This document shows positions 14,914 to 28,245 of a stretch of DNA of 64,000 bases, piece by piece. The notes beneath the pieces are model-generated. The model saw only the letters and a program-made list of their open reading frames with translations, had not been told where the DNA came from and searched no databases. Both the position numbers and the translations under genes were made by a program. Source of the DNA: Hyphomicrobiales bacterium (GTDB lineage Bacteria > Pseudomonadota > Alphaproteobacteria > Rhizobiales > Xanthobacteraceae); assembly GCA_017305715.1 (NCBI GenBank), contig JAFKKG010000018.1, forward strand, positions 1 through 64,000, written 5' to 3'. Within the stretch, counting starts at the first letter, position 1; each line of letters opens with the position of its first letter.

Positions 14914-15690
14914 ATGCCGAATCCGAAATCACCCCGCGTCCGCGCGGTCCCCGCCGTTACCCGCGCCATCGCCATTCTCCGTCTGCTCAGCCGCAGCCGT
15001 GAGCCGCAAAGCCTGAAATCGATCGCGGAGAGTCTCGATCTGGTGCCGAGCACCGCCCTGCACATCGCGCGCGCGCTCGTTGCGGAAGATTTGCTGCGGG
15101 CCGACCCGCTGACCAAGCGCTACAGCCTCGGCACCGGCATGCTGCCCTTGGCGCGCGCGGTGCTGGAGAATGCCGACTTTCCAAGCCTGGTGCGGCCCAA
15201 GCTCGATGATCTCGCGAGCCGCTACGGCGTCATGGCCATCGGTGTCGAGGTGCCGGATCTCGACCACATGATCGTGGTCACGCTGTCGCGCAGCCAGGCG
15301 CCGGTGCGCCTCCATGTCGATGTCGGCAGCCGGTTTCCCGCGCTCATCAGCGCCACCGGACGATGCGTTGCCGCCTTTACCGGACAACCCTGGAAGGAAA
15401 TCGAGAGGCGTTTTCGCCTGCTGCGCTGGCACAACGCGCCGACTTACGATGCATGGCGCAAGGAAGTCGACCAGGTCCGCCGCCAGGGCTTCAGCATCGA
15501 TCGCGGCAATTACATCGACGGCGTCACCATCGTGGCGGTGCCGGTCCTGAACAGCCAGGGCACCATCTCGCATACGCTCGCGGCCGTCGGCCTCGGCAGC
15601 CAGCTCGACCGCGCCAAGTCGCTGGCGCTGGCGCGCGACATGGACATCGTCGCGCGCGAGATTACCGCGCAGTTGGCGCCGCTCGCCTGA
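14914..15690 (+). CDS. IclR-family transcriptional regulator
   Basis: This is a 258-residue regulator. The N-terminal winged helix covers about 10-75 (AVTRAIAILRLLS, then LKSIAESLDLVPSTALHIAR as the recognition region). The C-terminal effector-binding domain covers about 85-255 (HVDVGSRFPALISATGRCVA, and DGVTIVAVPVLN near the end). The ATG giving MPNPKSPRV is preferred because it starts just before the helix-turn-helix. A longer frame runs into the upstream palindrome and encodes a Cys-rich stretch with no family support. No ribosome binding site is present. It faces the ligase/hydratase/CoA-transferase operon and probably controls that operon and itself. Confidence 0.92.
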   Translation: MPNPKSPRVRAVPAVTRAIAILRLLSRSREPQSLKSIAESLDLVPSTALHIARALVAEDLLRADPLTKRYSLGTGMLPLARAVLENADFPSLVRPKLDDLASRYGVMAIGVEVPDLDHMIVVTLSRSQAPVRLHVDVGSRFPALISATGRCVAAFTGQPWKEIERRFRLLRWHNAPTYDAWRKEVDQVRRQGFSIDRGNYIDGVTIVAVPVLNSQGTISHTLAAVGLGSQLDRAKSLALARDMDIVAREITAQLAPLA

Positions 15691-15720
15691 CCTCGCGACC
15701 GGGGCAAGCCACAGACGCAC

Positions 15721-15816
15721 GGCCCCCAGACTTATCGTCGTTCCAGCCGAGGTCCGCGAACCCGGCCGCGCGCAGAGGGCCTCTTCGGCGGCGAGTAACT
15801 TGTCGAGCTGCGGCGG
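15721..15816 (-). pseudogene. Fragment of a DinB-family gene 3' end
   Basis: About 96 bp match the 3' end of the intact DinB gene at 23259-23357, in the same orientation and at clearly high similarity. The shared blocks include GGCCGCGCGCAGAG, CCTCTTCGGCGGCGA and GTCGAGCTGCGGCGG. One G of a GGGG run is missing relative to the intact gene, which shifts the frame. The decoded piece reads QLDKLLAAEEA before the shift, against QLDEFFAAEEA in the intact protein. No upstream part of the gene remains. It marks the left edge of the catabolic island. Confidence 0.75.
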
Positions 15817-15879
15817 ACGAATGCCGGGCGCGCCTGCGTGCTCCTGGACGAGATGATGAATCCGACGTGAGGAATACGG

Positions 15880-16383
15880 CTAACAAACCGGCTGCACGGC
15901 GCAGAACTCACGATTGAAATGAACGAGCGGCTTCCTGCTCGGCTGAAGCCGGACATTCTTAACTTCGCAGAAGAATACGGAATGTTGTCCGACCGTCATC
16001 TCCTGGATGACTTCGCAATCGAGAACGGCGAGTGCATCGATGAGGGCGGGGACACCACTTGCCATTTCAAGCCACCTTTCATTGTCGAACCTCTGCGGTC
16101 CCTTTATGTTGGACGACGAAAACAACTCGGCGAGATCCGTATGATCGCGCGTCAAGACATTGACGCTGATTCGCTTGGTTGCGCTCATGGTGCCATGGGC
16201 ACCGGCGTCGCGATTCACACATGCGATGAGCGACGGCGGGTCCATGGTCAACGAACAAACGGCCGTCATGGTCAGACCATGCCATTCGCCATTACTATTC
16301 GTCGCCACAATGCATACGCCTCCGGCGAGAAGACGCATGCTTTGCTTGAACATTTCGGACGAAATCGGTGTCTCGGTGATCAC
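15880..16383 (-). CDS. Flavin reductase (reductase component of a two-component monooxygenase)
   Basis: This 167-residue flavin reductase-like protein (HpaC/HsaB type split barrel) would reduce FMN or FAD with NAD(P)H for the neighbouring oxygenase. Recognisable segments are MRLLAGGVCIVATNSNGEWH, GLTMTAVCSLTMDPPSLIAC and the C-terminal PLVHFNREF. The GTG start is chosen because GGAAGG lies 7 nt upstream. The longer frame to 16512 starts with TTG and adds 43 residues without family similarity. It follows the oxygenase gene by 132 nt on the same strand. Confidence 0.88.
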   Translation of the reverse strand: MITETPISSEMFKQSMRLLAGGVCIVATNSNGEWHGLTMTAVCSLTMDPPSLIACVNRDAGAHGTMSATKRISVNVLTRDHTDLAELFSSSNIKGPQRFDNERWLEMASGVPALIDALAVLDCEVIQEMTVGQHSVFFCEVKNVRLQPSRKPLVHFNREFCAVQPVC

Positions 16384-16515
16384 GCCTCTACCTTCCGACT
16401 TGTTCGATAGGTCGTGGATGACAACTGGAGGAGTTGGCTGCATTCCGGGCGATGCCGGCTGTCCCAAGCGGGAGTTCCGCAAAGTCGCGATTTTCCACGT
16501 CCTGAAAGGCAATGA

Positions 16516-17736
16516 TCAGGCGAAGGGCGCTGCTCTGGGATTTTCGCCGAGGTCACCCGTCAATCTGAACTGGCCCATCAGGTTGGAGACGGTATCGAAG
16601 TCGATCACCGCATGGTGGCACGCCGTGTTGATGTCACGGAAGGCACGATAGACCGCGTTGCCCTCGTAGAGGCCGTGGGCGCCCGCCGCAGCGAACAGAC
16701 GCTCGATCGCCCGGCGGCTCAGCTCGACGACAAACGCGGCATCCCAGCGCATCTGGATGCGGTCTTGCGCCGACATTGGCGCCTGATCGATTTCCATCAA
16801 GGCATCGAAGCGGTCGCACATGTCCTCGAGAAGCCGCCGTGCTGCGGCGACTTCCGCGGTGGATTCCGCTACCCGCTTTTGCATGATGGGGTTCTTGCCT
16901 TTGGCCACGCCATACGCCGTCGTGCGCGTTGACGTTGCATCCACGAAAGCCTTCAGGCCGGCTTCAGCCATGCCGAGGACGGAGCCGGACAGCATGGCCG
17001 GCAGGCCCGAGTAGACCGAAAGCCGGTAGGTCGGCGCCGTCGCGTGCGGGCTGAGACCAAGGAAGGTCGGGGTGGTCGGCATCACGCGATGCTCCGGGAC
17101 GAAGGCGTTGTTCACCACGAGATCCTTCGATCCCGTACCCCGCATGCCCAGGGTATGCCAGGTGTCGTCGAGGATGACATCTGCGCGCGGAACCATGACA
17201 TGATGAATGATATAATCGTCCGGTCCGGGATTGGCAGCTCGGGCCCCGAGGATGAACCAGGGAGAATGATCGCACCCGCTGCCGAACTGCCATCGCCCCG
17301 TGAAGCGCCAGCCCCCTTCCACCCGCTCAATCGTGCCTTGCGGCGCCAAGGAGCCCGCCACGAGATTGTCGGCGTCGCCTTCGTAGACTTCCCGTTGGCA
17401 CTCTTCCGGAAAGCGGCCGATGATGTAGTCATGCGCCACGCAAACCATCAACACCCAGCTTGCCGCCGAGCAAACGTTGGCGATGTCGGCGCAAGCCCTG
17501 ATGTGAGCGCTGGGCGAGAGCTCGTACCCGCCGAACCGCTTCGGCGTGATCATGCGCGCCAGTCCGGACTCCCGCAGGGCATTGGCGGCATCGTCGCTGA
17601 GGCGGCGAAGCTTGTCGCTCTCGTGCGTGGTGGCGGCGAGCCGGGGAAGGATGGAGCGCACCGCGCTCTTGTAGTCGAAGTCGGAAGCGGACGCGCCTTC
17701 CGAATGAACCTTGCTTGCGGCGACAGCGCTATTCAT
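16516..17736 (-). CDS. Acyl-CoA-dehydrogenase-fold flavin monooxygenase (group D)
   Basis: This 406-residue protein has the acyl-CoA dehydrogenase fold used by two-component hydroxylases such as HsaA and HpaH/C2. Helical N-terminal domain: about 20-125, with PKRFGGYELS. Beta domain: about 130-235, with GGWRFTGRWQFGSGCDHS and GMRGTGSKDLVV. C-terminal helices: about 250-395, with AAAGAHGLYEGNAVYRAFRD. The ATG is preceded by GGGAG. With the flavin reductase 132 nt downstream it probably hydroxylates an aromatic or heteroaromatic substrate. Transcription likely starts from the promoter at 17859-17887 next to lysR. A desulfurising or N-hydroxylating role cannot be excluded. Confidence 0.88.
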   Translation of the reverse strand: MNSAVAASKVHSEGASASDFDYKSAVRSILPRLAATTHESDKLRRLSDDAANALRESGLARMITPKRFGGYELSPSAHIRACADIANVCSAASWVLMVCVAHDYIIGRFPEECQREVYEGDADNLVAGSLAPQGTIERVEGGWRFTGRWQFGSGCDHSPWFILGARAANPGPDDYIIHHVMVPRADVILDDTWHTLGMRGTGSKDLVVNNAFVPEHRVMPTTPTFLGLSPHATAPTYRLSVYSGLPAMLSGSVLGMAEAGLKAFVDATSTRTTAYGVAKGKNPIMQKRVAESTAEVAAARRLLEDMCDRFDALMEIDQAPMSAQDRIQMRWDAAFVVELSRRAIERLFAAAGAHGLYEGNAVYRAFRDINTACHHAVIDFDTVSNLMGQFRLTGDLGENPRAAPFA

Positions 17737-17858
17737 TCCACATCTCCCTGATAAGCACGGCCCGAGACCATCTTCGCTCGTCGGCTGCGACCCTTCAGCT
17801 CCAGCCTCGTCGAACGCTATCTCGAGTTCTGCAACAACAACGGCGTTCTGTTGCAGCA

Positions 17859-17887
17859 ACGATGTCGCTCGGCTTGAACTAAGTCAA
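17859..17887 (-). promoter_or_regulatory. Predicted promoter of the monooxygenase operon
   Basis: On the minus strand TTGACT (17882-17887) is followed after 17 bp by CATCGT (17859-17864). The same arrangement, TTGACT-N17-CATCTT, occurs upstream of the amidohydrolase/importer operon at 22955-22983. The -35 box is good and the -10 box is weak, as expected for an activator-dependent promoter. The conserved 38-bp operator overlaps the -35 element. Confidence 0.55.
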
Positions 17888-17902
17888 ATTCATAGTTATA
17901 AT
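17874..17902 (+). promoter_or_regulatory. Predicted lysR promoter giving a leaderless mRNA
   Basis: TTGAAC (17874-17879), a 17-bp spacer and a consensus TATAAT (17897-17902) lie directly before the lysR ATG at 17910. Only 7 nt separate the -10 box from the ATG, so the transcript should start at or next to the initiation codon. No Shine-Dalgarno sequence is present. The promoter overlaps the divergent minus-strand promoter. Confidence 0.55.
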
Positions 17903-17913
17903 TCTTTGCATGA
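17876..17913. promoter_or_regulatory. Operator copy A of the island LysR regulon
   Basis: This 38-bp stretch is identical at 35 of 38 positions to 22972-23009. Conserved blocks are GAACTAAGTCAAATTCAT and ATAATTCTTTGCATGA. It is AT-rich against a GC-rich background and imperfectly inverted (TCAAA...TTTGCATGA). It lies between lysR and the divergent monooxygenase gene, the classic place for a LysR-type binding site. Binding is inferred. Confidence 0.65.
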
Positions 17914-18824
17914 GCCAGGCTAATAGCTATCTCGACCTCAACCTGTTGCGCGTGTTCTTCGCGATCTGGGATCTTCGCAGCCTCACCGCCGCCGGCGAGC
18001 GTCTGGGCCTGACCCAGCCGGCTATCAGCCATGCCCTGCGGCGATTGAGAGAGCGCTTCGGCGACCCGTTGTTCGTCAGGGTGGCGAACCGCATGCTGCC
18101 GACGGATGCGGCCGTGCGTTTGCACGAGCCACTCGATCAGGCTTTCGAGCTGCTGAACCGCGCCTTGCAAAGCGGCATCGTATTCGATCCGCGCGCGACC
18201 GAGCGAACTTTTCGGGTGGCGATGTCCGACATCGCCGAGGTCTACATTTTACCCCGACTCATAAACGAGCTGGCGCGCATCTCGCCGTTCATCCGCGTCG
18301 ACATCGTCCCTCTGGAGCCAGATAGCGTGGTGAGCTCGATGCGTTCGGGCGAGATCGACCTCGCGATGGGTGCCGTCAACATGTCGGACAAGGATCTCGT
18401 CAGTATCGACACGTTCAAGGACCGATACATCTGCCTGGTGCGCGCCAATCACCCGATCGCAAAGTCCAGACTTACGCGTTCGAATTTTTCAAAGCTGCGC
18501 TTCTTCTTCGCGCGAACCACGTCTTCGGTCTACCAGCTCGCCGAGCAATGGCTCGCGGATGAAAACGTTCGGCCGCGGATCGCAGTTCGCGGACACTTTA
18601 CCGCGGCACCGGAGATCGTCCGCAATTCGGATCTCGCCGCTATTTTCCCAAGGCTGCTGGCGCTGGAACTGCACCGCGCCAAGGATTTCCGGCTGCTCGA
18701 TCTTCCGTTCGAGCTACCACCGATGGAGATCAAGATTCACAGCCACTCCCGCTTTGCCAACGACACCGGCATCAAGTGGATATGCCAGACCAGCACGGCC
18801 ATCCTGAGCAAGATCGGCGGCTAG
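17910..18824 (+). CDS. LysR-family transcriptional regulator (NahR/NodD-like)
   Basis: This is a 304-residue LysR regulator. The DNA-binding domain covers about 8-70, with LDLNLLRVFFAIWDLRSLTA and the recognition helix QPAISHALRRLRERFGDPLF. The effector domain covers about 95-300 (FRVAMSDIAEVYILPRLINE, then IDLAMGAVNM). It is divergent from the monooxygenase operon and convergent with the importer operon. Operator copies occur upstream of both operons, so it is the likely activator of the whole island in response to the pathway substrate. It appears to be translated from a leaderless mRNA. Confidence 0.93.
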   Translation: MSQANSYLDLNLLRVFFAIWDLRSLTAAGERLGLTQPAISHALRRLRERFGDPLFVRVANRMLPTDAAVRLHEPLDQAFELLNRALQSGIVFDPRATERTFRVAMSDIAEVYILPRLINELARISPFIRVDIVPLEPDSVVSSMRSGEIDLAMGAVNMSDKDLVSIDTFKDRYICLVRANHPIAKSRLTRSNFSKLRFFFARTTSSVYQLAEQWLADENVRPRIAVRGHFTAAPEIVRNSDLAAIFPRLLALELHRAKDFRLLDLPFELPPMEIKIHSHSRFANDTGIKWICQTSTAILSKIGG

Positions 18825-18845
18825 CGCGGATCTCGACGGCGCGCT

Positions 18846-19817
18846 TCACTTCCGGGGATCGAAACGGGTTGAGAAGGCCTCGGCAGGGACCGTGTCGAGA
18901 TAGCCGCCGCCCATGACTTCGTTTGCCAATCCACCGAAACGCCGCAGGGACGCGATGGTGGCTTCATTCCAAGTCGTCGTGTAGTCGGCGAGCACGCGCT
19001 CGCGCAGCAGCGCAATGGCGGCGGGTTCGAGCCCGTATTTCTTGCCGTAGGCTTCGAATACCTCGGGATGAGCCTTGATGTAGTCCAGCGCTTCGAGCCA
19101 TGCCTTCGTGAAATTTTTCAACGCTTCCGGCTCGGCCTTCATGAAGTCGTCGTTGGTCGAGTAGCCGATCCAGAGAAAATCGTCACCGGTACCGGCCTTG
19201 TAGGCGTCGGCGAGATTGCCGATGGACCTGTACTTGCCGGAGCCCTCGAGCTTGGCCGCGAGCGGATCGAACATAACGGCAGCGTCAATCTCGCCCTTGT
19301 CGAGCAAAGCGGGGAGCAGGCCGGGCCCGGCAAACTGCAGGTCCCCTGTCTTGCCCGGATCGAACCCGTGGAACTTTGACGCAATTACGCGAAACAGCAC
19401 GGTCGCGGTGCCGGCCGCTCCTGCGAAGGAGCCGACCTTCTTGCCCTTGAGGTCGGCGATACTCTTGATTGGCGAGGCAGTCGGCACGATGACGTCAACC
19501 GTCACTCCGCGCCCGACCGGGAATATCATCGTGACCGGCAAGCCCTTGCCCCGGAATTGAGCGATGGCGGTCCAGCCGCCGAAGCCTACATCGACATCCT
19601 TGCCGCGGATGGCCGTGAAGAGCCCATCGAGAGTCGGGTAGGCTCGGTACTCGGCCGCGATGCCATATTTCTTGTCGATGCCCTGGTCGATCATGACGCG
19701 TGACCCGATCTCGTTCAGGGATTGCGCAAGATCCCCGATCCGTACCTTGACCTGCGCAGTGGCAGTACCGGACGTGGCGAGCAGGACAGCGGCGAAAATA
19801 CCAAGACGGAACAGCAT
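18846..19817 (-). CDS. ABC importer substrate-binding protein (nitrate/sulfonate/taurine type)
   Basis: This 323-residue periplasmic receptor of the SsuA/TauA/ThiY-like group has a signal peptide to about residue 22 (SGTATAQ). The mature part has KVRIGDLAQSLNEIGSRVMI, a DVDVGFGGWTAIAQF segment and GKKVGSFAGAAGTATVLF, typical of the two-lobed NMT1-like fold. GGGAGAGAG precedes the ATG. It is the last gene of the amidohydrolase-permease-ATPase-receptor operon, 24 nt after the ATPase gene. The ligand is unknown. Co-regulation with a monooxygenase suggests an aromatic, heteroaromatic or organosulfur compound. Confidence 0.92.
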   Translation of the reverse strand: MLFRLGIFAAVLLATSGTATAQVKVRIGDLAQSLNEIGSRVMIDQGIDKKYGIAAEYRAYPTLDGLFTAIRGKDVDVGFGGWTAIAQFRGKGLPVTMIFPVGRGVTVDVIVPTASPIKSIADLKGKKVGSFAGAAGTATVLFRVIASKFHGFDPGKTGDLQFAGPGLLPALLDKGEIDAAVMFDPLAAKLEGSGKYRSIGNLADAYKAGTGDDFLWIGYSTNDDFMKAEPEALKNFTKAWLEALDYIKAHPEVFEAYGKKYGLEPAAIALLRERVLADYTTTWNEATIASLRRFGGLANEVMGGGYLDTVPAEAFSTRFDPRK

Positions 19818-19841
19818 ACTCTCTCTCCCAGATGCCAAAGG

Positions 19842-20660
19842 TCAGATGTTCATTCGGGCCGCGGCGTGGCGGTCGAGATCATCGACCAGGCTCGGTTCAT
19901 TTGCCGGGATTGCGGACGGGACAGGTTCGCGGCCGATCTCGGCGTCGAACGCCTTAATAAGGTCCCGGCTCAGCTCGAAAATGGCTGGATCGTCGTAGCT
20001 TCGCGGGCGGGCGATCGGGACGCGCATTTCGTGCCGGAACGCGCCGCCCAACATCACCAGGATCCGGTCAGCTAGAAAGCAGGCCTCGTAAGCATTGTGC
20101 GTGACGAAGACGATCGTCTTGCGCGTTTCTCGCCAGATCGAAAGAAGATCGGTGCGGATGCGGCGTGCCGTGATCTCGTCGAGCCCCGAGAAGGGCTCGT
20201 CCATCAGGAGAATGCCGGGTTCGACGCACAAAGCCCGCACGAGGGCGAGGCGCTGGGCCATGCCGCCCGAGATCTGGTGGGGATAGTAGTCGCGATATTC
20301 CGACAGGCCCGTCATGGCGAGATAGCGGGATTTCAGCTCGTCCCAGCGCGAGGCCGGCACCTTGCAGCCGGTGAGCGCGAAATCGAGATTCTGTTCGGCG
20401 GTCAGCCATGGCAGCAGGCGCGGCTCCTGAAATAAATAGCCGACGCGGCCGGCACTCACGCGAGCCTGCCCCTCGTAGACCTTGTCCAGTCCGGCGAGGA
20501 CATTGAGCAACGTCGATTTGCCGCAGCCCGACGGTCCGAGGATGCACAGGAATTCCCCCGCGCCGACCGATAGATCGAGGTCTTTCAAGACGGCACGGGA
20601 CGTGCCGTCGCGGCCCTTGAAGGTCTTCCGAAGTGACGCGACTTCAATTGCCGGATTCAT
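19842..20660 (-). CDS. ABC importer ATP-binding protein (SsuB/TauB type)
   Basis: This 272-residue ATPase energises the importer. Walker A is GPSGCGKSTLL at about 42-52, the Q-loop is in LFQEPRLLPWL, the signature ISGGMAQRLALVRAL is at about 130-144, and Walker B is ILLMDEPFSGLD. The start ATG overlaps the stop of the permease gene by 4 bases (ATGA), showing translational coupling. The C-terminal tail (about 235-272) is longer than the ATPase core needs and has no recognised domain. Confidence 0.93.
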   Translation of the reverse strand: MNPAIEVASLRKTFKGRDGTSRAVLKDLDLSVGAGEFLCILGPSGCGKSTLLNVLAGLDKVYEGQARVSAGRVGYLFQEPRLLPWLTAEQNLDFALTGCKVPASRWDELKSRYLAMTGLSEYRDYYPHQISGGMAQRLALVRALCVEPGILLMDEPFSGLDEITARRIRTDLLSIWRETRKTIVFVTHNAYEACFLADRILVMLGGAFRHEMRVPIARPRSYDDPAIFELSRDLIKAFDAEIGREPVPSAIPANEPSLVDDLDRHAAARMNI

Positions 20661-21397
20661 ACCGCTACCTGCGGGCGCCATGCGAAGATGCGCCGTTCAA
20701 TCGGTTTCAAGATGACGAGCTCGATCAAGAGCATGATGATGGTGAAGAGCAGCGTCCAGGCCAGCACCTGGCGCATGTCGGCAAGCTGGTACCAGTAGAA
20801 CAGCTTGAACCCGACGCCGTTTGGACGGCCGATCAATTCCACCAGGACCGTGATCTTCCAGATGATGCCGAGCCCGAAGCGCGCGGATGCCATCACATAG
20901 GGAAAGATCTGCGGCATGAGCACGCGGCGCACGATGGCCGGCCGTGAGGCCTCGAACACGCGGGCCATCGCGACGAGCTTGGTGTCGACGTTCTTCACGC
21001 CTTCCCAGATGTTGATCGTGATCGAAGGCGCGGCGGTAACGGCGATGGCGAGGATGGCGGCGCTCTCGTTCAGCCCGAACCACATGAAGGCCATGATGGC
21101 GTAACAGAGACTTGGCACCGTCAGTCCGATCATCACCCACACGTCGAGCACGGCCTCGGCGCGCCGGTTGAGTCCCATCAGGACGCCGACCGGAACGCCC
21201 AGTATCAGCGCGAGCAGGAGGCCGGCCACGACGCGCAACATCGTCATGGCGAGGTCGGTCCACAGGTCCCCTTTGACAATCTCGCCCCACAGGGTGCGCG
21301 CGGTCTCGATCGGACCGGGGAAGATTTCGGGCGGCAGCGTCAGGGACAGCAGCCCCCAAATAATGACCGCTGACACAAAGGAGACCAACTTAAGCAT
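20657..21397 (-). CDS. ABC importer permease (SsuC/TauC type)
   Basis: This 246-residue inner-membrane permease has about six hydrophobic segments, the first being LKLVSFVSAVIIWGLLSLTL. The ATPase-docking EAA loop is represented by EASRPAIVRRVLMPQIFPYV (about 150-170). The chosen ATG begins MLKLVSF and overlaps the end of the amidohydrolase gene by 8 bases, which ties the enzyme and importer into one operon. The longer frame adds 13 polar basic residues. Confidence 0.92.
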   Translation of the reverse strand: MLKLVSFVSAVIIWGLLSLTLPPEIFPGPIETARTLWGEIVKGDLWTDLAMTMLRVVAGLLLALILGVPVGVLMGLNRRAEAVLDVWVMIGLTVPSLCYAIMAFMWFGLNESAAILAIAVTAAPSITINIWEGVKNVDTKLVAMARVFEASRPAIVRRVLMPQIFPYVMASARFGLGIIWKITVLVELIGRPNGVGFKLFYWYQLADMRQVLAWTLLFTIIMLLIELVILKPIERRIFAWRPQVAV

Positions 21398-22781
21398 GGT
21401 TTTGACCCTGCATGACCTGCGCTGCCGGAAGAACAATGCCCGCGCGCGCCGCGCAGCGGCGTGCCACCCGCTCGGCCTCCACGAGAAGAGCGTCCTCGTC
21501 GACCGTCAGGACCTTGCGACCCCGCATGACGACGCGCCCATCGATCACGGCATCCCGGACGTCGCCGCCCCGCGCGCTGTAGACCAGCGCCTTCTCCGGA
21601 TCGAAGAGCGGCGCGAGATGGGGCTGCCTTGCCTCCACCGTGATCAGGTCGGCTCGCTTTCCGACCTCAATGGATCCCGCCTCAGGCCGCCCGATCGCGC
21701 GCGCGCCTTCTGCCGTCGCCATCCGCAGCGCGCGCGCGGCGGTGAGCGCGCGGGGATCGTTCGCAGCCGTCTTGGCGGTGGCGCAGGCGTATTTCATGCT
21801 CTCAAAAAGGTCCTGCCCGCAATTGGCCGCGGCGCCATTGGTGGCGACACCGCAGGTGATGCCCGCCGTCAGAAAATCCCCGATCGGCGGGAAACCGGTG
21901 CCCCAGAACAGACGCGTCTGGGGATCGAAAAGCACAGCGGTGCCGCTTGCGGCAAGCAGCTCGATTTCGCGCGGCGAAACGTCCGAGCAGGCAACGGCCT
22001 GGACGTCGGGACCCAGGCAACCGACCTCTTCGAGCAACTCGACCTGCCGGATCTCGCGGCCGAAATGGCGAGCGATCATCAGGTTGAACTCGGGCGACTC
22101 GGCCACGTGCATGTGGAGCGAAAGGCCGTTGTCGCGCGCAACCCGGCGCGTTTCACGGAACCCTTGCTCGTCCATGACCCAGGGCAGAAGCGGTCCGATC
22201 GACAGGCTGAGGCGGCCGCCCTCGGATCCGTGCCAACGTCCCGCGAGGCGTCCGACCCGCTCCGCCTGCTCTCTCGCGGTCTCGCAGAATCGCGGATCGA
22301 AATGACGCGCCTCGGTGGCGCGCGCGACAGTGCCCCGAAGTCCACTGTCGCGAAGAGCGCGGAACGCCGCGTCCTCGACATCCGCGGTAGCGTGCGGCGG
22401 CATGAAGATATTCTCGACCAGGCTCGTGTTGCCGTTCTTGATGTTCTCGACGCAACCGAGCAATTCAGCGACGTAGAGCGCCTCGTCGTCCATCGCGGCC
22501 ATCATCGGCATCAGAAGATCGAGCCATTCGAGCAGCCGTCGCTCCGGACCGATCGTGCGGCCAAACACCATGCACAAATGCGTATGGGAATTCACAAGCC
22601 CCGGGAGCACGATCTTCCCGGTGGCGTCAATGACGAGATCGCAATTCGGCACGGGATCGGCGGTGGAATGCTCGACGGCGACGATGTCGCGTCCCTCGAC
22701 TACAACCCGCCCATCCTCGATGACCCGGCCTGCCCGGTCCATCGTGAGCACAAGCCCATGCTCGATCGCGATGCGCTTCAT
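21390..22781 (-). CDS. Amidohydrolase (AtzA/TrzN/SsnA subfamily) with altered active site
   Basis: This 463-residue amidohydrolase-superfamily protein has the HxH motif (H66, H68 in NSHTHL) and the next His/Glu pair (H225, E228 in HMHVAES). The canonical AHCVH segment reads VACSD, so Ala264 replaces a metal histidine. The canonical GTDGAAS reads ATNGAAA, so Asn315 replaces the catalytic aspartate. TrzN-like enzymes tolerate loss of the aspartate, but loss of both is unusual. I start at the ATG giving MKRIAIEHG; a GTG three codons upstream, five bases after GAGG, is an alternative. It heads the importer operon and would act in the cytoplasm on the imported compound, if it is active. Confidence 0.85.
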   Translation of the reverse strand: MKRIAIEHGLVLTMDRAGRVIEDGRVVVEGRDIVAVEHSTADPVPNCDLVIDATGKIVLPGLVNSHTHLCMVFGRTIGPERRLLEWLDLLMPMMAAMDDEALYVAELLGCVENIKNGNTSLVENIFMPPHATADVEDAAFRALRDSGLRGTVARATEARHFDPRFCETAREQAERVGRLAGRWHGSEGGRLSLSIGPLLPWVMDEQGFRETRRVARDNGLSLHMHVAESPEFNLMIARHFGREIRQVELLEEVGCLGPDVQAVACSDVSPREIELLAASGTAVLFDPQTRLFWGTGFPPIGDFLTAGITCGVATNGAAANCGQDLFESMKYACATAKTAANDPRALTAARALRMATAEGARAIGRPEAGSIEVGKRADLITVEARQPHLAPLFDPEKALVYSARGGDVRDAVIDGRVVMRGRKVLTVDEDALLVEAERVARRCAARAGIVLPAAQVMQGQNHA

Positions 22782-22954
22782 CAACAACACCAAAGCCTCA
22801 CGGCCGCTCCTTGAAAATCACTCACGGTGACCTCATCGTCAGACGTCCCGATCCGGGCGATGAGATCAGGGAAAGTTCGACGTTCGATAACGCGCGGGAT
22901 TTGGTCTGCGCGCACGAATTGCCTGTTGCATCGAACCGGATACCCATTCCCGGA

Positions 22955-22983
22955 AAGATGTCCGCCTTCTCGAACTAAGTCAA
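22955..22983 (-). promoter_or_regulatory. Predicted promoter of the amidohydrolase/importer operon
   Basis: TTGACT (22978-22983) and CATCTT (22955-22960) on the minus strand are separated by 17 bp, exactly as at the monooxygenase promoter. It lies about 175 bp upstream of the amidohydrolase start. The -35 box falls inside operator copy B. Confidence 0.55.
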
Positions 22984-23009
22984 ATTCATGATAATAATTC
23001 TTTGCATGA
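22972..23009. promoter_or_regulatory. Operator copy B of the island LysR regulon
   Basis: It is 35/38 identical to copy A at 17876-17913, including an ATG in the same relative place (23006). Looser similarity continues for about 20 bp towards the amidohydrolase gene (GATGTC...GAAC). Its position indicates control of the importer operon by the LysR protein encoded at 17910. Confidence 0.65.
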
Positions 23010-23100
23010 ATTTGGATAATGAGATGGCCATCTCTGCTTGTTGTTTGGGCACCGCAAGCCTGCATTTGACCTTTCCTGAAACACGCGTCGTTCTGACGAT

Positions 23101-23220
23101 GAGTCCGTCAACCACCGCTCGCAGCCTGGCGTCCGCGCAGACGCCGATCCGGCTCATATCTGGCTGCGCGAGCATCTGTCGGAGATCGTCCGGGCGTTGC
23201 GCGGCGGCCTGCCGGGCGAG
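23101..23220 (+). pseudogene. C-terminal remnant of another LysR-family gene
   Basis: In one frame this encodes a tail ending ADADPAHIWLREHLSEIVRA, the typical C-terminal helix of NahR-like LysR proteins (DPAHxWLRE). The frame is not joined to the ATG at 23006 and nothing of the DNA-binding domain is seen. The intact island LysR ends differently (DTGIKWICQTSTAIL), so this is from a second regulator. It suggests a deletion at the right edge of the island. Confidence 0.55.
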
Positions 23221-23258
23221 GGCCAAGGGTGCCGCGCCGATTGCCGCGGGGTCCTAAG

Positions 23259-23816
23259 TCACCGCCCCCACACTTTGTCCTCACTCCAACCGAGTTCCGC
23301 GAACTCGGCCGCGCGCAGAGGGGCCTCTTCGGCGGCGAAGAACTCGTCGAGCTGCGGCGGGCTGACAGCGGTCGCGCTCAGCATCGCGTGCGCCTGACCG
23401 CGGTGATGGACCTGATGCTGGAACAGATGCAGCAGCAAGCGATCCGCCCGCTCCCGTTGAATGCGGCTGCCACGATGCACGTTGACGATGCGATCGAGAT
23501 CGGCGGTGCCGAGCCCCTCGACCAAGGCAATCAGCCGCCGGTCCATCTCGCCTTGCGCATCGCGAAGCAGGGGCACGGTTTCGCAGGGCTCCCGGTTGGC
23601 CCAGGCCGCCGGGCCCAGCGTGCCGCCTTCCATTGCGTCGATGTAGAAGCGGTCGATGATCAGGATGTGATTGAGCGTCGCGCGCAGGCTTGGAAAGAAA
23701 CCGGTGCGCGATGCGGTGAATTCGGCCTGCGACAGTGCGGCGCAGGCCGTCAGCAGGCGATGGTTGGCCCAGCCATTGTTGTAGGCCATCGAACGGTATG
23801 GAAGCATCGCATCCAT
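23259..23816 (-). CDS. DinB-family protein
   Basis: This 185-residue four-helix-bundle protein of the DinB/YfiT superfamily has putative metal ligands H50 (TLNHIL), H134 and H138 (HQVHHRGQ). Members include mycothiol- or bacillithiol-dependent transferases and many proteins of unknown role. The ATG giving MDAMLPYRS is chosen for its spacing of 9 nt from GGAG; a GTG two codons earlier is possible. It precedes no obvious partner; the VOC protein gene ends 20 nt upstream on the same strand and may be co-transcribed. A broken copy of its 3' end lies at 15721. Confidence 0.88.
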   Translation of the reverse strand: MDAMLPYRSMAYNNGWANHRLLTACAALSQAEFTASRTGFFPSLRATLNHILIIDRFYIDAMEGGTLGPAAWANREPCETVPLLRDAQGEMDRRLIALVEGLGTADLDRIVNVHRGSRIQRERADRLLLHLFQHQVHHRGQAHAMLSATAVSPPQLDEFFAAEEAPLRAAEFAELGWSEDKVWGR

Positions 23817-23836
23817 CGGCACTTTCTCCCACCGCC

Positions 23837-24799
23837 TCAGACCTTGACGAGGCGGACGCGCGTGCCCCAGGGGTCGGCGGCCTCCAGGCCATCAGCGAGA
23901 GCGGCGACCTGGACGCCAGCCTGGCGCAGGCGTTCTTCCCTTGCCGCAAGCAGATCCGGCTTTTCGATCTCCAGCGAAAACCAGGCAAGGCCGGTGGCCG
24001 CCTCGTCGCGGCGGCCGGCGCCGGCGCTTTGCCAGGTGTTGACGGCCAGATGGTGATGGTAGCGGCCGGAGGACAGGAAGGCGGCGCCGTTACGTGAGCG
24101 CGTCGGATCGAAGCCGAGGGTTTCGCGGTAGAAATGATCAGCCTTGGCGAGATCGCCGACGCGCAGATGCACGTGGCCGATGCGCAAGCCATCTGGCGCC
24201 CTGGCATAGTCGCTGACGCTTGTATTGGTGAGCGCGACGAGACTGTCGATGTCGAGTTGGTCGGTCGCCATCGTCACGGTGCCCGCGTCCCATTGCCACA
24301 GCGACGGATCGCGATCGGCATAGACCTCGATGCCATTGCCTTCGGGGTCGTCGAGATAGACGGATTCGCTGACGCGGTGATCGGCAAAGCCCGACAGCGG
24401 CACGCGGTGGATCGCGGCGTTGACCAGCCAGCGCGCGAGGTCCTTGCGCGTCGGCATCAGGAACGCGGTGTGATAGAGACCCGCCGCGTTGCGGGCTTCG
24501 GTCACCGCATCGGGACGGGCCTCGAGCGCCAGCAGTTTCACCCCGCCCGCGCCAAGCACGGCGCTGGTGGCGGAGCGCTCCATCACGGCAAGCCCGAGCA
24601 CGTCGCGATAGTAATCTGCCACGACATCGAGCTTGCGGACCCGGATCGTCACCATGCCGATCCGCATCGGCGTGCGGTTGGCGAAAGTTGGTCCGCCACC
24701 GCCCACCTCGGCCCGCGCCGCCGCAGCGGCAGCCGCCGCCAAGGAGGAGGCGCCGGCGAGATACAGCAAGGTGCGACGGGTCAGATCAGGGTTCATCAT
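23837..24799 (-). CDS. Tat-exported VOC (glyoxalase/dioxygenase-fold) protein
   Basis: This protein of about 320 residues carries a twin-arginine signal (DLTRRTLLYLAGASSLAAAA) and two VOC domains arranged as in CatE-like dioxygenases. Domain 1 (about 45-170) lacks the usual first His (GMVTIRV instead of GHVxLxV) but has DPEGNGIEVY. Domain 2 (about 200-318) has IGHVHLRV and YHHHLAVNTW, but its last ligand motif reads DPWGTRVRL, without the usual Glu. Export of such a protein by Tat fits a metal-loaded fold. Enzymatic activity is uncertain given the missing ligands. It shares a strand with the DinB gene, 20 nt away. Confidence 0.82.
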   Translation of the reverse strand: MMNPDLTRRTLLYLAGASSLAAAAAAAARAEVGGGGPTFANRTPMRIGMVTIRVRKLDVVADYYRDVLGLAVMERSATSAVLGAGGVKLLALEARPDAVTEARNAAGLYHTAFLMPTRKDLARWLVNAAIHRVPLSGFADHRVSESVYLDDPEGNGIEVYADRDPSLWQWDAGTVTMATDQLDIDSLVALTNTSVSDYARAPDGLRIGHVHLRVGDLAKADHFYRETLGFDPTRSRNGAAFLSSGRYHHHLAVNTWQSAGAGRRDEAATGLAWFSLEIEKPDLLAAREERLRQAGVQVAALADGLEAADPWGTRVRLVKV

Positions 24800-24875: not shown

Positions 24876-27800
24876 CTAGCCGCCCTCGCCCACCAGCACG
24901 AACGGGGCCCAAACCGATGGATCGGCATTGCGCTCCGACGACCGGTCGGCGATCAGGGCCTGCATCGAACGGCGCAGCGCTTCGGCCCGGCCGATCGCCG
25001 GGTTCCTTTTCAACTCACCGAAAGCACCCGTCGTGAGTTTCACCGCGGCGGCGGAATCGACCGGCCAGTGCGACACCAGCAACGAGCGGGCCCCGGCATA
25101 AAAGAAGGCCCGCGCAAGTCCCGACAGGCCTTCGGCGCCGGGCTTGTCGCCGGCCGCCGTATTGCAGGCCGACAGCACGGCCCAATCCGCGTCGAGGCGG
25201 AGCCTGGCGATCCGGCTTGCGGTGAGCAGGCCGTCGTCTTCCGCGGTGGGACGATCCGGCAAGGTGAGCACGAGCGCGGGTTCGCTCAAGCCGCCCACCT
25301 CGCCGGCCACCAGGCCGTGCGTGGCGAAGTCGACGACGCGATACTGATCCAGCGGCATGCTCTTGACGGCGGTCACGGTCGCCGCCGGGCCGAGATTGAC
25401 GTCGCGGTCGGAGGCCCCGAGATCCCGCGCCACCGCGCGCAGTTCGTTGGCCGTTTCAGGCAAGGCGGGCAGCCCGCTGCGCAACCGGTCGATGTCGACC
25501 GTCGTGCCGGTGTAATAGGATTGATAGGGTTGCACGCTGCGCGCGGGTTTGACCGGGGCGCCCGGCCGCTGCAATTGGGGGTCGCCAAAACCGATGAACG
25601 GCCTGGTCGCGCGCGACGTCCTGGCGAAAACGCGCAGCGCACGAAGGCTGCTCACCGTCGGCAGCACCGTGATCGCCCTGTCGTTGAGCAGCCACGCGGC
25701 CTGCCGATAACGATCGGAAGGATCGCTCGCGGGATCGGGCCGTTTGGTCACGAGCACATGGAACGGCAGGCTGGTCAACGCGCCGGTCGGCACCACCAGC
25801 AACTTCGCCTTGCCGGCGATGGCCGCCTCGACCGGACCGATCAACGCCGCATAGAGATCGTAGGACGCTGCAAGATCGAACACCTTGGCGGCCGCATCCG
25901 ACGCCGGGTCGAACAGACCAAGACGCAGCCGGCCGACCTGGTCGCTGATGCCTTTGCTGCCGAGCGGGATCTCGCGCCAGACGGCCGCCTCGCGCGTGAC
26001 CGCGAACACGTAGCTCTTGTCGCGCATGCTCAGAAATGAAAGCAGCGCCTCATCCGGTTTGAGCAAGGCCTTGGCCTGGCCGAGCGACAATGGCGCCGGG
26101 CTCGACAACTCCGTATACCCGGGAAAATCGCGCGCGATTTGCGCCGATATCTGCTCGAACGACTGGCGGGCCCGGCTGCTCTCCGCACGAAGCCTCGCGA
26201 TCAGATCGTCGTTGCGTTTGCCGTCGGCCGTGCCGAGTTCGGTGGTAATGCGCTTGTCGAGGCTGTCGAGCGTGGCTTTGAGGTCTTGCTGCCGGCGAAC
26301 CGCGGCGGCGATCGCATCGTCGCCGGCGCCGAAGCGCGCGGCCATCTGGGCCAGTGCCGCGCCTGCCTGGGTCTCATGCACGCGCTGCGCGGCGGCGAAT
26401 GCCTCGCCGATATGAGATTCGTCCGGACTCCCGCCCGCGGTGTGCCAGATGGCTTCGACCAGCGCGGTATCCAGATCGGTAAAGCGCTTGAATTGAGCCT
26501 TGTCGCTGCCGCCGCTCTGCTGCCCTTCCATGGCCGCCGATGCCTCGCGCAACTTCGCCACCGCATCCGGCCATTTGTTCTCGCGGCCATCGACGTCGGC
26601 GAGGTTGATCAGCGTTGCGATCGTATCGTGATGATGCGCGCCCAACCGGGCCTGCGCGATCCGCAAGGCACGCTCCAGTTGGGCTCTGGCGTCGGAAAGA
26701 TTGCCGCTTCGCAGGTCGAGAAGCGCGATGCCGCGAAGATCGTTCACGATTTGCGGGTGCTCCGGACCGAGCACGCGCTCGTCGATTTTCAGGGCGCGAT
26801 CGAGATATTCCGCCGCCTCGGCGAAGCGGCCGCTGTCCTGCAACGCCCGCCCCATGGTGCCGAACGCGAGCGCGACCGGCCCGCCATCGCGGCCAAATTT
26901 GTCCTGCATGATGCGCTGCGCGCGTTCATAAAGCGGAATCGCCTCGTCTCTCCGGCCGAGTTCACGATAGGAGTTGGCGAGATTGTTCAGCGCGCGGGCG
27001 ACCTCGGGGCTATCGGGACCGGCGGCTTTTTCCTGGATCGCGACGACGCGCTGCTGCAGGCCCGCGGCGTCCTGGGTCCGGCTTTGATCGGCATAGACAT
27101 TCGCGAGGTTGTTGAGGCCGATCGCGGTGAGCGCATGGCTGGAGCCAAACAGACGCTCATAGACCGCCAGAGCCTTCTTGTAGAGATCTTCGGCTTCGGA
27201 AAACCGCGACTGGCCTTCCAGGACGGTGGCAAGGTTGCCCATGGTCGCCGCGACGTTCGGATGGTCGTCGCCATGCCTCATGCGTCCTGCCGCGAGTGCG
27301 CGCTGGAGCGCCTTCTCGGCATCGGCGAAGCGGCCGGCATCCTTGTAGAGGTTGCCGAGATCATTCAGCATCTTGTCGTAATTCGGGGCGGCCATGGCGT
27401 CGGCGCCGTAGGTCTGCTCAAGCAGGGCCAGGCCCTGCTTGAGCAACCGTTCGCCATCATCGAAGCGGCCTTCCAACCCGTAGAGATCGCCGAGATCGTC
27501 CATCGAGGAAGCAATCTCGTACGGCGCAGACAGCGTCGACTTCTGCCGCCCGGCCAGCGCGCGTTCGAAGTAACGCTCGGCCTCCCTGTAATTCTCCTGG
27601 TCGCGGGCAAGTCCACCGAGCGCAGCCAGCGTGCCGGTCAGCCGGACATCATCCGGGCCGAACGCCCGGGTGCCGATCGCCAGCGCCCGTTCCGCAACGG
27701 CCGATGCCTCGGCGCGGCGGTTGAGCATGCCGAGCGACGCAATCAGGATATTCGAGGTGCGCAGCGTCGATGCCGCGTCGTTATTGCGCAGCTTGATCGC

Positions 27801-28097
27801 CAGCGCTGCATTCAGCTTTGCCACCGCCTCCGGGTAGCGACCGAGGTTTTGCAGGAACATGCCTTCATTGTGCAGCACACCGGCATAGTTCATATTGCCG
27901 GCGCCCTGCTGCCGGCGGACAAGGCCTTCCAGTTTCTGCGCCAGCGCCAGCCCCTCGGCCTGGCGTCCGCTCCGCGCGGCTTCGTTCATCTGTGCGGCCA
28001 GCGCATCGATGTCATTGGCGCGCTGGGCTACCGCGTTCTGGCAGGCCCAGGGAAACACGATGGCAAGGATCAAAACGATCGCGCGCGCGGGGCTCAT
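24876..28097 (-). CDS. Secreted TPR-CHAT protein (caspase-like protease domain)
   Basis: The protein has 1073 residues from the ATG beginning MSPARAIVLILAIVFPWACQ, a signal peptide or membrane anchor (residues ~1-25). About a dozen tetratricopeptide repeats follow (about 60-560; for example GRYPEAVAKLNAALAI and GRFADAEKALQRALAAGR). A helical linker covers about 560-670. A CHAT domain occupies about 670-1073, with the catalytic pair H927 (FATHG) and C978 (LSACNT). CHAT proteins are caspase/separase-related peptidases. No gasdermin, CRISPR or other known partner adjoins it. The export signal makes a cytoplasmic defence role less likely. The partner and substrate are unknown. Confidence 0.9.
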   Translation of the reverse strand: MSPARAIVLILAIVFPWACQNAVAQRANDIDALAAQMNEAARSGRQAEGLALAQKLEGLVRRQQGAGNMNYAGVLHNEGMFLQNLGRYPEAVAKLNAALAIKLRNNDAASTLRTSNILIASLGMLNRRAEASAVAERALAIGTRAFGPDDVRLTGTLAALGGLARDQENYREAERYFERALAGRQKSTLSAPYEIASSMDDLGDLYGLEGRFDDGERLLKQGLALLEQTYGADAMAAPNYDKMLNDLGNLYKDAGRFADAEKALQRALAAGRMRHGDDHPNVAATMGNLATVLEGQSRFSEAEDLYKKALAVYERLFGSSHALTAIGLNNLANVYADQSRTQDAAGLQQRVVAIQEKAAGPDSPEVARALNNLANSYRELGRRDEAIPLYERAQRIMQDKFGRDGGPVALAFGTMGRALQDSGRFAEAAEYLDRALKIDERVLGPEHPQIVNDLRGIALLDLRSGNLSDARAQLERALRIAQARLGAHHHDTIATLINLADVDGRENKWPDAVAKLREASAAMEGQQSGGSDKAQFKRFTDLDTALVEAIWHTAGGSPDESHIGEAFAAAQRVHETQAGAALAQMAARFGAGDDAIAAAVRRQQDLKATLDSLDKRITTELGTADGKRNDDLIARLRAESSRARQSFEQISAQIARDFPGYTELSSPAPLSLGQAKALLKPDEALLSFLSMRDKSYVFAVTREAAVWREIPLGSKGISDQVGRLRLGLFDPASDAAAKVFDLAASYDLYAALIGPVEAAIAGKAKLLVVPTGALTSLPFHVLVTKRPDPASDPSDRYRQAAWLLNDRAITVLPTVSSLRALRVFARTSRATRPFIGFGDPQLQRPGAPVKPARSVQPYQSYYTGTTVDIDRLRSGLPALPETANELRAVARDLGASDRDVNLGPAATVTAVKSMPLDQYRVVDFATHGLVAGEVGGLSEPALVLTLPDRPTAEDDGLLTASRIARLRLDADWAVLSACNTAAGDKPGAEGLSGLARAFFYAGARSLLVSHWPVDSAAAVKLTTGAFGELKRNPAIGRAEALRRSMQALIADRSSERNADPSVWAPFVLVGEGG

Positions 28098-28245
28098 GCA
28101 ATATCCATCAAAAATATGCACCGATCATACGTTGGTACGGCTATTGGCGCATGGCCGGAGTCGCTCAAATAACGAAGATTTGCGTCAGGCCGGCACTTCG
28201 AAGGGCCGCTTCAATCGGATGCGAAGGCCGATCAAGACTGCGCCC

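Follow-up and report, generated by a model that had tools for sequence, protein, structure and literature searches.

In a 64,000-nucleotide stretch of a Hyphomicrobiales genome, here called the window, two nearly identical copies of a 38-base-pair (bp) sequence lie at 17876-17913 and 22972-23009, the first in the divergent region between flavin monooxygenase genes and a lysR gene (17910-18824), and the second upstream of an operon for an amidohydrolase and an ATP-binding cassette (ABC) importer. These two conserved, box-bearing sites are tied to one lysR and to two target units. We consider it likely that they are operators of about 70 bp for the linked LysR, each of which would drive a weak minus-strand promoter, copy 1 that of the monooxygenase genes and copy 2 that of the amidohydrolase/ABC genes; we further propose a sliding regulator, autorepression of lysR and an origin of copy 2 by duplication. 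Two sets of neighbouring genes would thus probably share one regulator, which would also act on the gene that encodes it. The preliminary description of this DNA had proposed one LysR regulon for import, hydrolysis and oxygenation of one compound. As a prediction of a regulon it stands, more strongly than first stated: the copies have the features to be expected of operators of this LysR, namely a conserved position and core, boxes at the published distances and no further copy in the genome. What had been missed is that copy 1 is also the predicted promoter and start codon of lysR, making lysR itself a putative third target. The hydrolysis step is doubtful, with Ala and Asn in the amidohydrolase for His and Asp, and the single compound shared by all the genes is conjectural. 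The LysR regulon is well supported, but it is an ordinary and known kind of bacterial gene control.

The two copies are identical at 35 of 38 positions and in orientation, as direct comparison confirmed. If bases are taken as independent, chance would yield about 2e-7 pairs this similar in the window, and 0.003 in the genome of 7,452,781 bases. A pattern search of this genome with up to 3 mismatches returned exactly the two copies, while the reversed control pattern gave none; across the family sample (296 genomes, own included) the same search found a third copy in one further genome, beside a lysR orthologue. Such counts leave a negligible probability to the idea of a dispersed repeat or mobile element, which would be expected in many copies at unrelated loci and which could appeal to two copies lying 5.1 kb apart in a cluster that is itself an insertion: two copies in 7.45 Mb, with the third again beside lysR, exclude one of the outcomes by which the preliminary description would have given up its proposal. 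We also built a sequence-only operator model from 18 aligned sites, both window copies being in its training set. Its top matches in the own genome are the two known copies (E 2e-19 and 6e-19), and the third (E 0.036) is copy 2 again, read from the other strand, because copy 2 is palindromic. The model found matches in 15 genomes, where G401, G410 and G541 were looked at by BLAST only and G385 and G569 were left out.

The similarity does not end with the 38 bp first described: when relatives are aligned, it extends over about 70 bp. The loci of these relatives came partly from one contig scan (12 loci) and otherwise from genome searches. This footprint alignment has 22 rows, 13 for site 1 and 9 for site 2, with column 1 at 17876 or 22972; it leaves out the distant LysR loci L008-L033 and L056 (29-45% identity) and L045 (33%, partial), as well as L054, L055 and L058-L061, which are duplicates of contigs already included. 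At least 21 of the 22 rows agree at each of columns 5-18 (TAAGTCAAATTCAT), likewise at T24, A26-T27, ATGA at 35-38 and A48-T49, and T46 is kept in 19, while the flanking columns have no comparable conservation. From 118 possible starts of the LysR-type pattern T-N11-A, only three (columns 5, 14 and 36) have it in at least 20 rows, and each has it in all 22. At operator 1 the corresponding boxes are 17880-17892, an activation-type box centred at about -34 from the predicted monooxygenase start and covering the -35 hexamer; the overlapping 17889-17901, centred at about -43, with its position derived from the column numbering; and the recognition-type 17911-17923, centred at -65 and lying within the first lysR codons. 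At operator 2 they are 22976-22988 (about -34), 22985-22997 (about -43) and 23007-23019 (-65). The boxes at columns 5-17 and 36-48 are inverted with respect to each other, so that at both copies the -65 and -34 boxes face each other, and the spacings are fixed at 22 and 31 bp, with an offset of 9 bases between the -34 and -43 boxes.

The arms of these facing boxes pair best where they should. At site 2 the mean pairing is 10.5 of 14 at the expected register against at most 6.25 at other offsets, and at site 1 it is 7.75 of 14 against at most 6.75; within the window, copy 2 reaches 16 of 23 symmetric pairs, a value attained by 5e-5 of shuffles. The layout published for LysR-type operators, as given in the available excerpt of PMC8407307, spans 50-60 bp and combines a T-N11-A recognition box near -65 with sites for activation, which lie at -35 and -10, and the available part of PMC4730206 gives an equal layout and describes sliding between two activation sites. 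The predicted distances from the minus-strand promoters agree with both excerpts: a T-N11-A box with partial dyad symmetry (columns 36-48, 22 of 22 rows) lies near -65 from an estimated start, and two activation-type boxes (columns 5-17 and 14-26, 22 of 22 rows each) lie near -35, within a span of 50-60 bp. Measured from starts that we placed seven bases past each -10 hexamer, at 17852 and 22948, the box centres at both copies stand 65 and 34 bases away, with the middle one at about 43.

The minus-strand promoters noted in the preliminary description, TTGACT-N17-CATC(G/T)T, are indeed present at both copies. The one predicted for the monooxygenase (17859-17887, minus strand; -35 at 17882-17887, -10 at 17859-17864) reads TTGACT-N17-CATCGT, and the one predicted for the amidohydrolase/ABC operon (22955-22983, minus strand; -35 at 22978-22983, -10 at 22955-22960) reads TTGACT-N17-CATCTT; across the 22 sites A2 of this -10 is kept in 22 and T6 in 21. 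On the plus strand, a predicted lysR promoter TTGAAC-N17-TATAAT (17874-17902) ends 7 nucleotides before the ATG at 17910, whose lysR reading frame begins with the final four bases of copy 1, and it is the better sigma-70 match, with 10 of 12 consensus bases. A promoter scan of 15600-24200 gave this site and one weaker plus-strand site, where 1.6 are expected in shuffles; as this count is not significant, the evidence for the lysR promoter is its conservation, both the lysR ATG and A2 of the lysR -10 being kept in 13 of 13 site-1 rows. Transcription starting seven or eight bases past this -10 would begin at the ATG or beside it, which makes a leaderless lysR probable, and since the -65 box overlaps the first lysR codons, autorepression is likely.

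Could the conservation belong to the lysR promoter alone, the minus-strand promoters being coincidental? The plus-strand promoter is closer to consensus, and the scan listed no minus-strand promoter in the region; yet A2 and T6 of the minus-strand -10 are kept at both copies, and the operator is kept at copy 2, where no lysR follows, so we regard this explanation as very improbable. At copy 2, only 4 of 9 rows keep A2 of the plus-strand, lysR-type -10, and no shared gene follows, for which reasons we conclude that copy 2 is kept for its minus-strand direction: its plus-strand promoter is decaying while the operator persists.

Copy 2 ends in ATG and a LysR-like start (MNL-AN), with first codons MNLDNE or MNLANE against MSQANS in lysR, yet it opens no gene common to the relatives, as would suit a remnant without function, left behind when the lysR 5' region was duplicated. 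We hold such a remnant to be quite improbable, as copy 2 is conserved in 9 aligned rows while its flanks vary, its palindrome is better than that of copy 1, and it keeps the minus-strand -10 as the plus-strand one decays. In the window the reading frame that this ATG opens is only 81 codons long; in L035 the frame is open much longer and resembles none of the other rows. The idea that a second lysR begins at copy 2 was rejected, because the frames after the ATG are unlike one another in the 9 rows and no gene family common to the loci begins there; a suspected remnant of a LysR C-terminus near 23108-23270 was also rejected, having no Pfam match. Gene conversion between the copies is not needed, with a mean within-genome identity of 29.9 of 38 against 28.9 across genomes and type-specific columns 19-20 that persist.

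For the favoured explanation, in which both copies are operators of the linked LysR, we infer the following mechanism. A LysR tetramer would place one dimer on the -65 box. In the absence of inducer the second dimer would occupy the -34 box and cover the -35 hexamer, and with inducer it would slide to the -43 box and free the hexamer, as in the sliding-dimer model that has been put forward for DntR and BenM. This complex, when formed at copy 1, would cover the lysR start site and first codons as well, giving autorepression. Copy 2 would descend from an old duplication of the regulatory region of lysR, from which the gene was lost while the operator was kept.

Several points weigh against this explanation. 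T-N11-A is a loose motif, and the box centres rest on start sites estimated from hexamers. The activation binding sites (ABS) in the available parts of the published accounts are near -10 and -35, whereas the -34 and -43 boxes lie some ten bases further upstream, so that the sliding assignment is loose. The symmetry of copy 1 in the window is modest, 11 of 23 pairs, which 3.6% of shuffles reach. Two loci, L043 and L040, hold lysR and the monooxygenase with no match to an amidohydrolase or ABC genes of this kind in the fetched stretch, which shows that linkage of the two targets is not universal; site 1 is found in L043 at 8 mismatches, and in L040, where a search allowing 10 mismatches found no copy, the row was placed by the position of the ATG only.

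It is also to be asked whether the sites are operators of another regulator, either a LysR paralogue or a global regulator. T-N11-A is common to LysR-type regulators generally, and in five genomes (L084, L085, L086, L087 and L088) weak model matches with the core TATGTCAAATTCAT and ATGA stand just before a different LysR-like gene (labelled by eye), so that other regulators may have a similar core. The site nevertheless travels with this lysR: it is found beside orthologues of 79-88% identity, it occurs among loci L001-L033 only in L001-L007, and the own genome has no copy elsewhere. The search found no site within 9 mismatches in L008-L033, and none within 10 in L009, L010 and L056. Control by another regulator is for these reasons unlikely.

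The linked lysR encodes on the plus strand a protein of 304 residues resembling NahR and DntR, with the helix-turn-helix domain PF00126 (E 5e-19) and the substrate-binding domain PF03466 (E 1.5e-24). The genes of the two target units lie on the minus strand. To the left of lysR are the oxygenase component of a two-component flavin monooxygenase with an acyl-CoA dehydrogenase fold (16516-17739), which resembles HsaA and the C2 component of p-hydroxyphenylacetate hydroxylase, and the flavin reductase component (15880-16512); to its right are an NMT1/SsuA-like binding protein of the SsuA/taurine group (18846-19838), the ATPase (19842-20681) and the permease (20657-21436) of the ABC importer, and a TRZ/ATZ-like amidohydrolase (21390-22793), which resembles AtzA and the MTA/SAH and 8-oxoguanine deaminases. 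No substrate is named, since the NCBIfam scores of the monooxygenase, the binding protein and the amidohydrolase are all below cut-off. What had been called two distant operons are in fact adjoining parts of one 7-kb cluster.

The amidohydrolase matches its solved relatives, such as AtzA (4v1x) and 8-oxoguanine deaminase (7ww2), over the full length and retains HxH and the beta-5 His. It differs from them at the beta-6 His, here Ala268, and the beta-8 Asp, here Asn319, which we take to be catalytic positions of TRZ/ATZ amidohydrolases; His and Asp stand there in all 4 displayed solved relatives. As both are replaced in 8 of 8 orthologues, where Ala268 and Asn319 are invariant in a protein otherwise well conserved, the pair expected of a catalytic TRZ/ATZ enzyme is lacking and hydrolysis by this protein is doubtful. 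A literature search on inactive amidohydrolases found no paper, nor did one on the cluster that asked for 5 of 6 terms, and the conserved protein with altered catalytic positions is flagged here.

Among relatives the distribution of the two genes is patchy. Orthologues of lysR with 85-88% identity occur in 4 of 149 relatives (own included), and those of the amidohydrolase in 8 of the 296 family genomes and, in an evenly drawn sample of 297 genomes of the order, in the own genome only. The recurring order is flavin reductase, monooxygenase, site 1, lysR, binding protein, ATPase, permease, amidohydrolase, site 2; it is seen in B. lablabi SZCCT0009 (L034), R. infernalis HC1 (L037), R. palustris 2.1.18 (L041), L057 and metagenome-assembled genomes (MAGs) of Bradyrhizobium (L035), Hyphomicrobiales (L036) and R. 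palustris (L042), with no flavin reductase match at 1e-15 in L035. Both sites are in place in all 8 loci, window included, that hold lysR and the amidohydrolase with its upstream region, and four further loci cut by contig ends (L038, L039, L044 and L062) have one site each. Across the Bradyrhizobium and Rhodopseudomonas clusters the core and the position of both copies are kept while the flanks diverge. In Bradyrhizobium sp. Rc3b (L043:8683-9839) the monooxygenase matches as two overlapping pieces, frameshift-like, beside an intact lysR.

With respect to known systems, the best solved relatives of this LysR include 2uyf, 1uth and 2y7k, the last being DntR in the excerpt of PMC4730206. The divergent arrangement of regulator and target, the recognition box near -65 and the activation boxes downstream are as in DntR/NahR-type systems; unlike these, the module has two operators, the -65 box adjoins the lysR start codon and takes in the codons that follow it, and lysR is probably leaderless. 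One recognition box with two overlapping activation-type boxes recalls BenM and CbnR as treated in the same excerpt, except that here the predicted boxes are near -34 and -43 with a 9-base offset. The LysG-lysE system of M. tuberculosis, in the part of PMC5648196 available, is alike in its LysR-type regulator, divergent promoters and leaderless transcript, though the leaderless transcript is that of the target there and, by prediction, that of the regulator itself here. What began as a two-copy repeat can now be read as a putative regulon of three promoters, for which the boxes are defined, the start sites predicted and a linked regulator named. The excerpt of PMC4730206 states that the sites of DntR had still to be established and that a conserved ABS'' motif had not been deduced for LysR-type transcriptional regulators, a question on which a naturally duplicated operator kept across two genera offers a handle.

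A wider picture may be put forward tentatively, and we think it somewhat less likely than not. The cluster would be a mobile catabolic module with a compact, self-copying control unit, in which the start and first codons of a leaderless lysR are its own recognition half-site; the second, gene-free copy would have escaped the coding constraint, improved its symmetry and captured a second operon; the 22- and 31-bp spacings would preserve, for the NahR/DntR branch, an evolutionary trace of how the sliding dimer works; and the amidohydrolase would be active although it lacks the usual pair of His and Asp.

As to its history, the module of 7 kb is inserted between iclR and dinB, and the block common to the window and B. 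lablabi occupies 15875-23025, with one border just past the flavin reductase and the other where operator 2 ends. An empty site, lacking the module, is seen in G372 (L110), where CaiB-MaoC-ligase-iclR is followed 0.75 kb on by dinB-glyoxalase-beta-lactamase-like genes, and G306 (L109) has about 8 kb of other DNA at this position. Carriage on plasmids gave no match at E 1e-60. To the left of the module, a diverged 3' fragment of dinB (15732-15865) repeats the end (23255-23388) of the intact dinB (23259-23822). A copy-2 operator in G301, outside the training set of the model (E 3e-15), is followed by fragments of the amidohydrolase and the flavin reductase, the locus being a decayed module; at L083:9744-10244 these fragments are fused, with an ABC-ATPase-like start between them by eye. 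Finally, the large TPR/CHAT-like gene at 24876-28121 (labelled by eye) has no counterpart between the glyoxalase and beta-lactamase-like genes in L109 and L110, and may be a second insertion.

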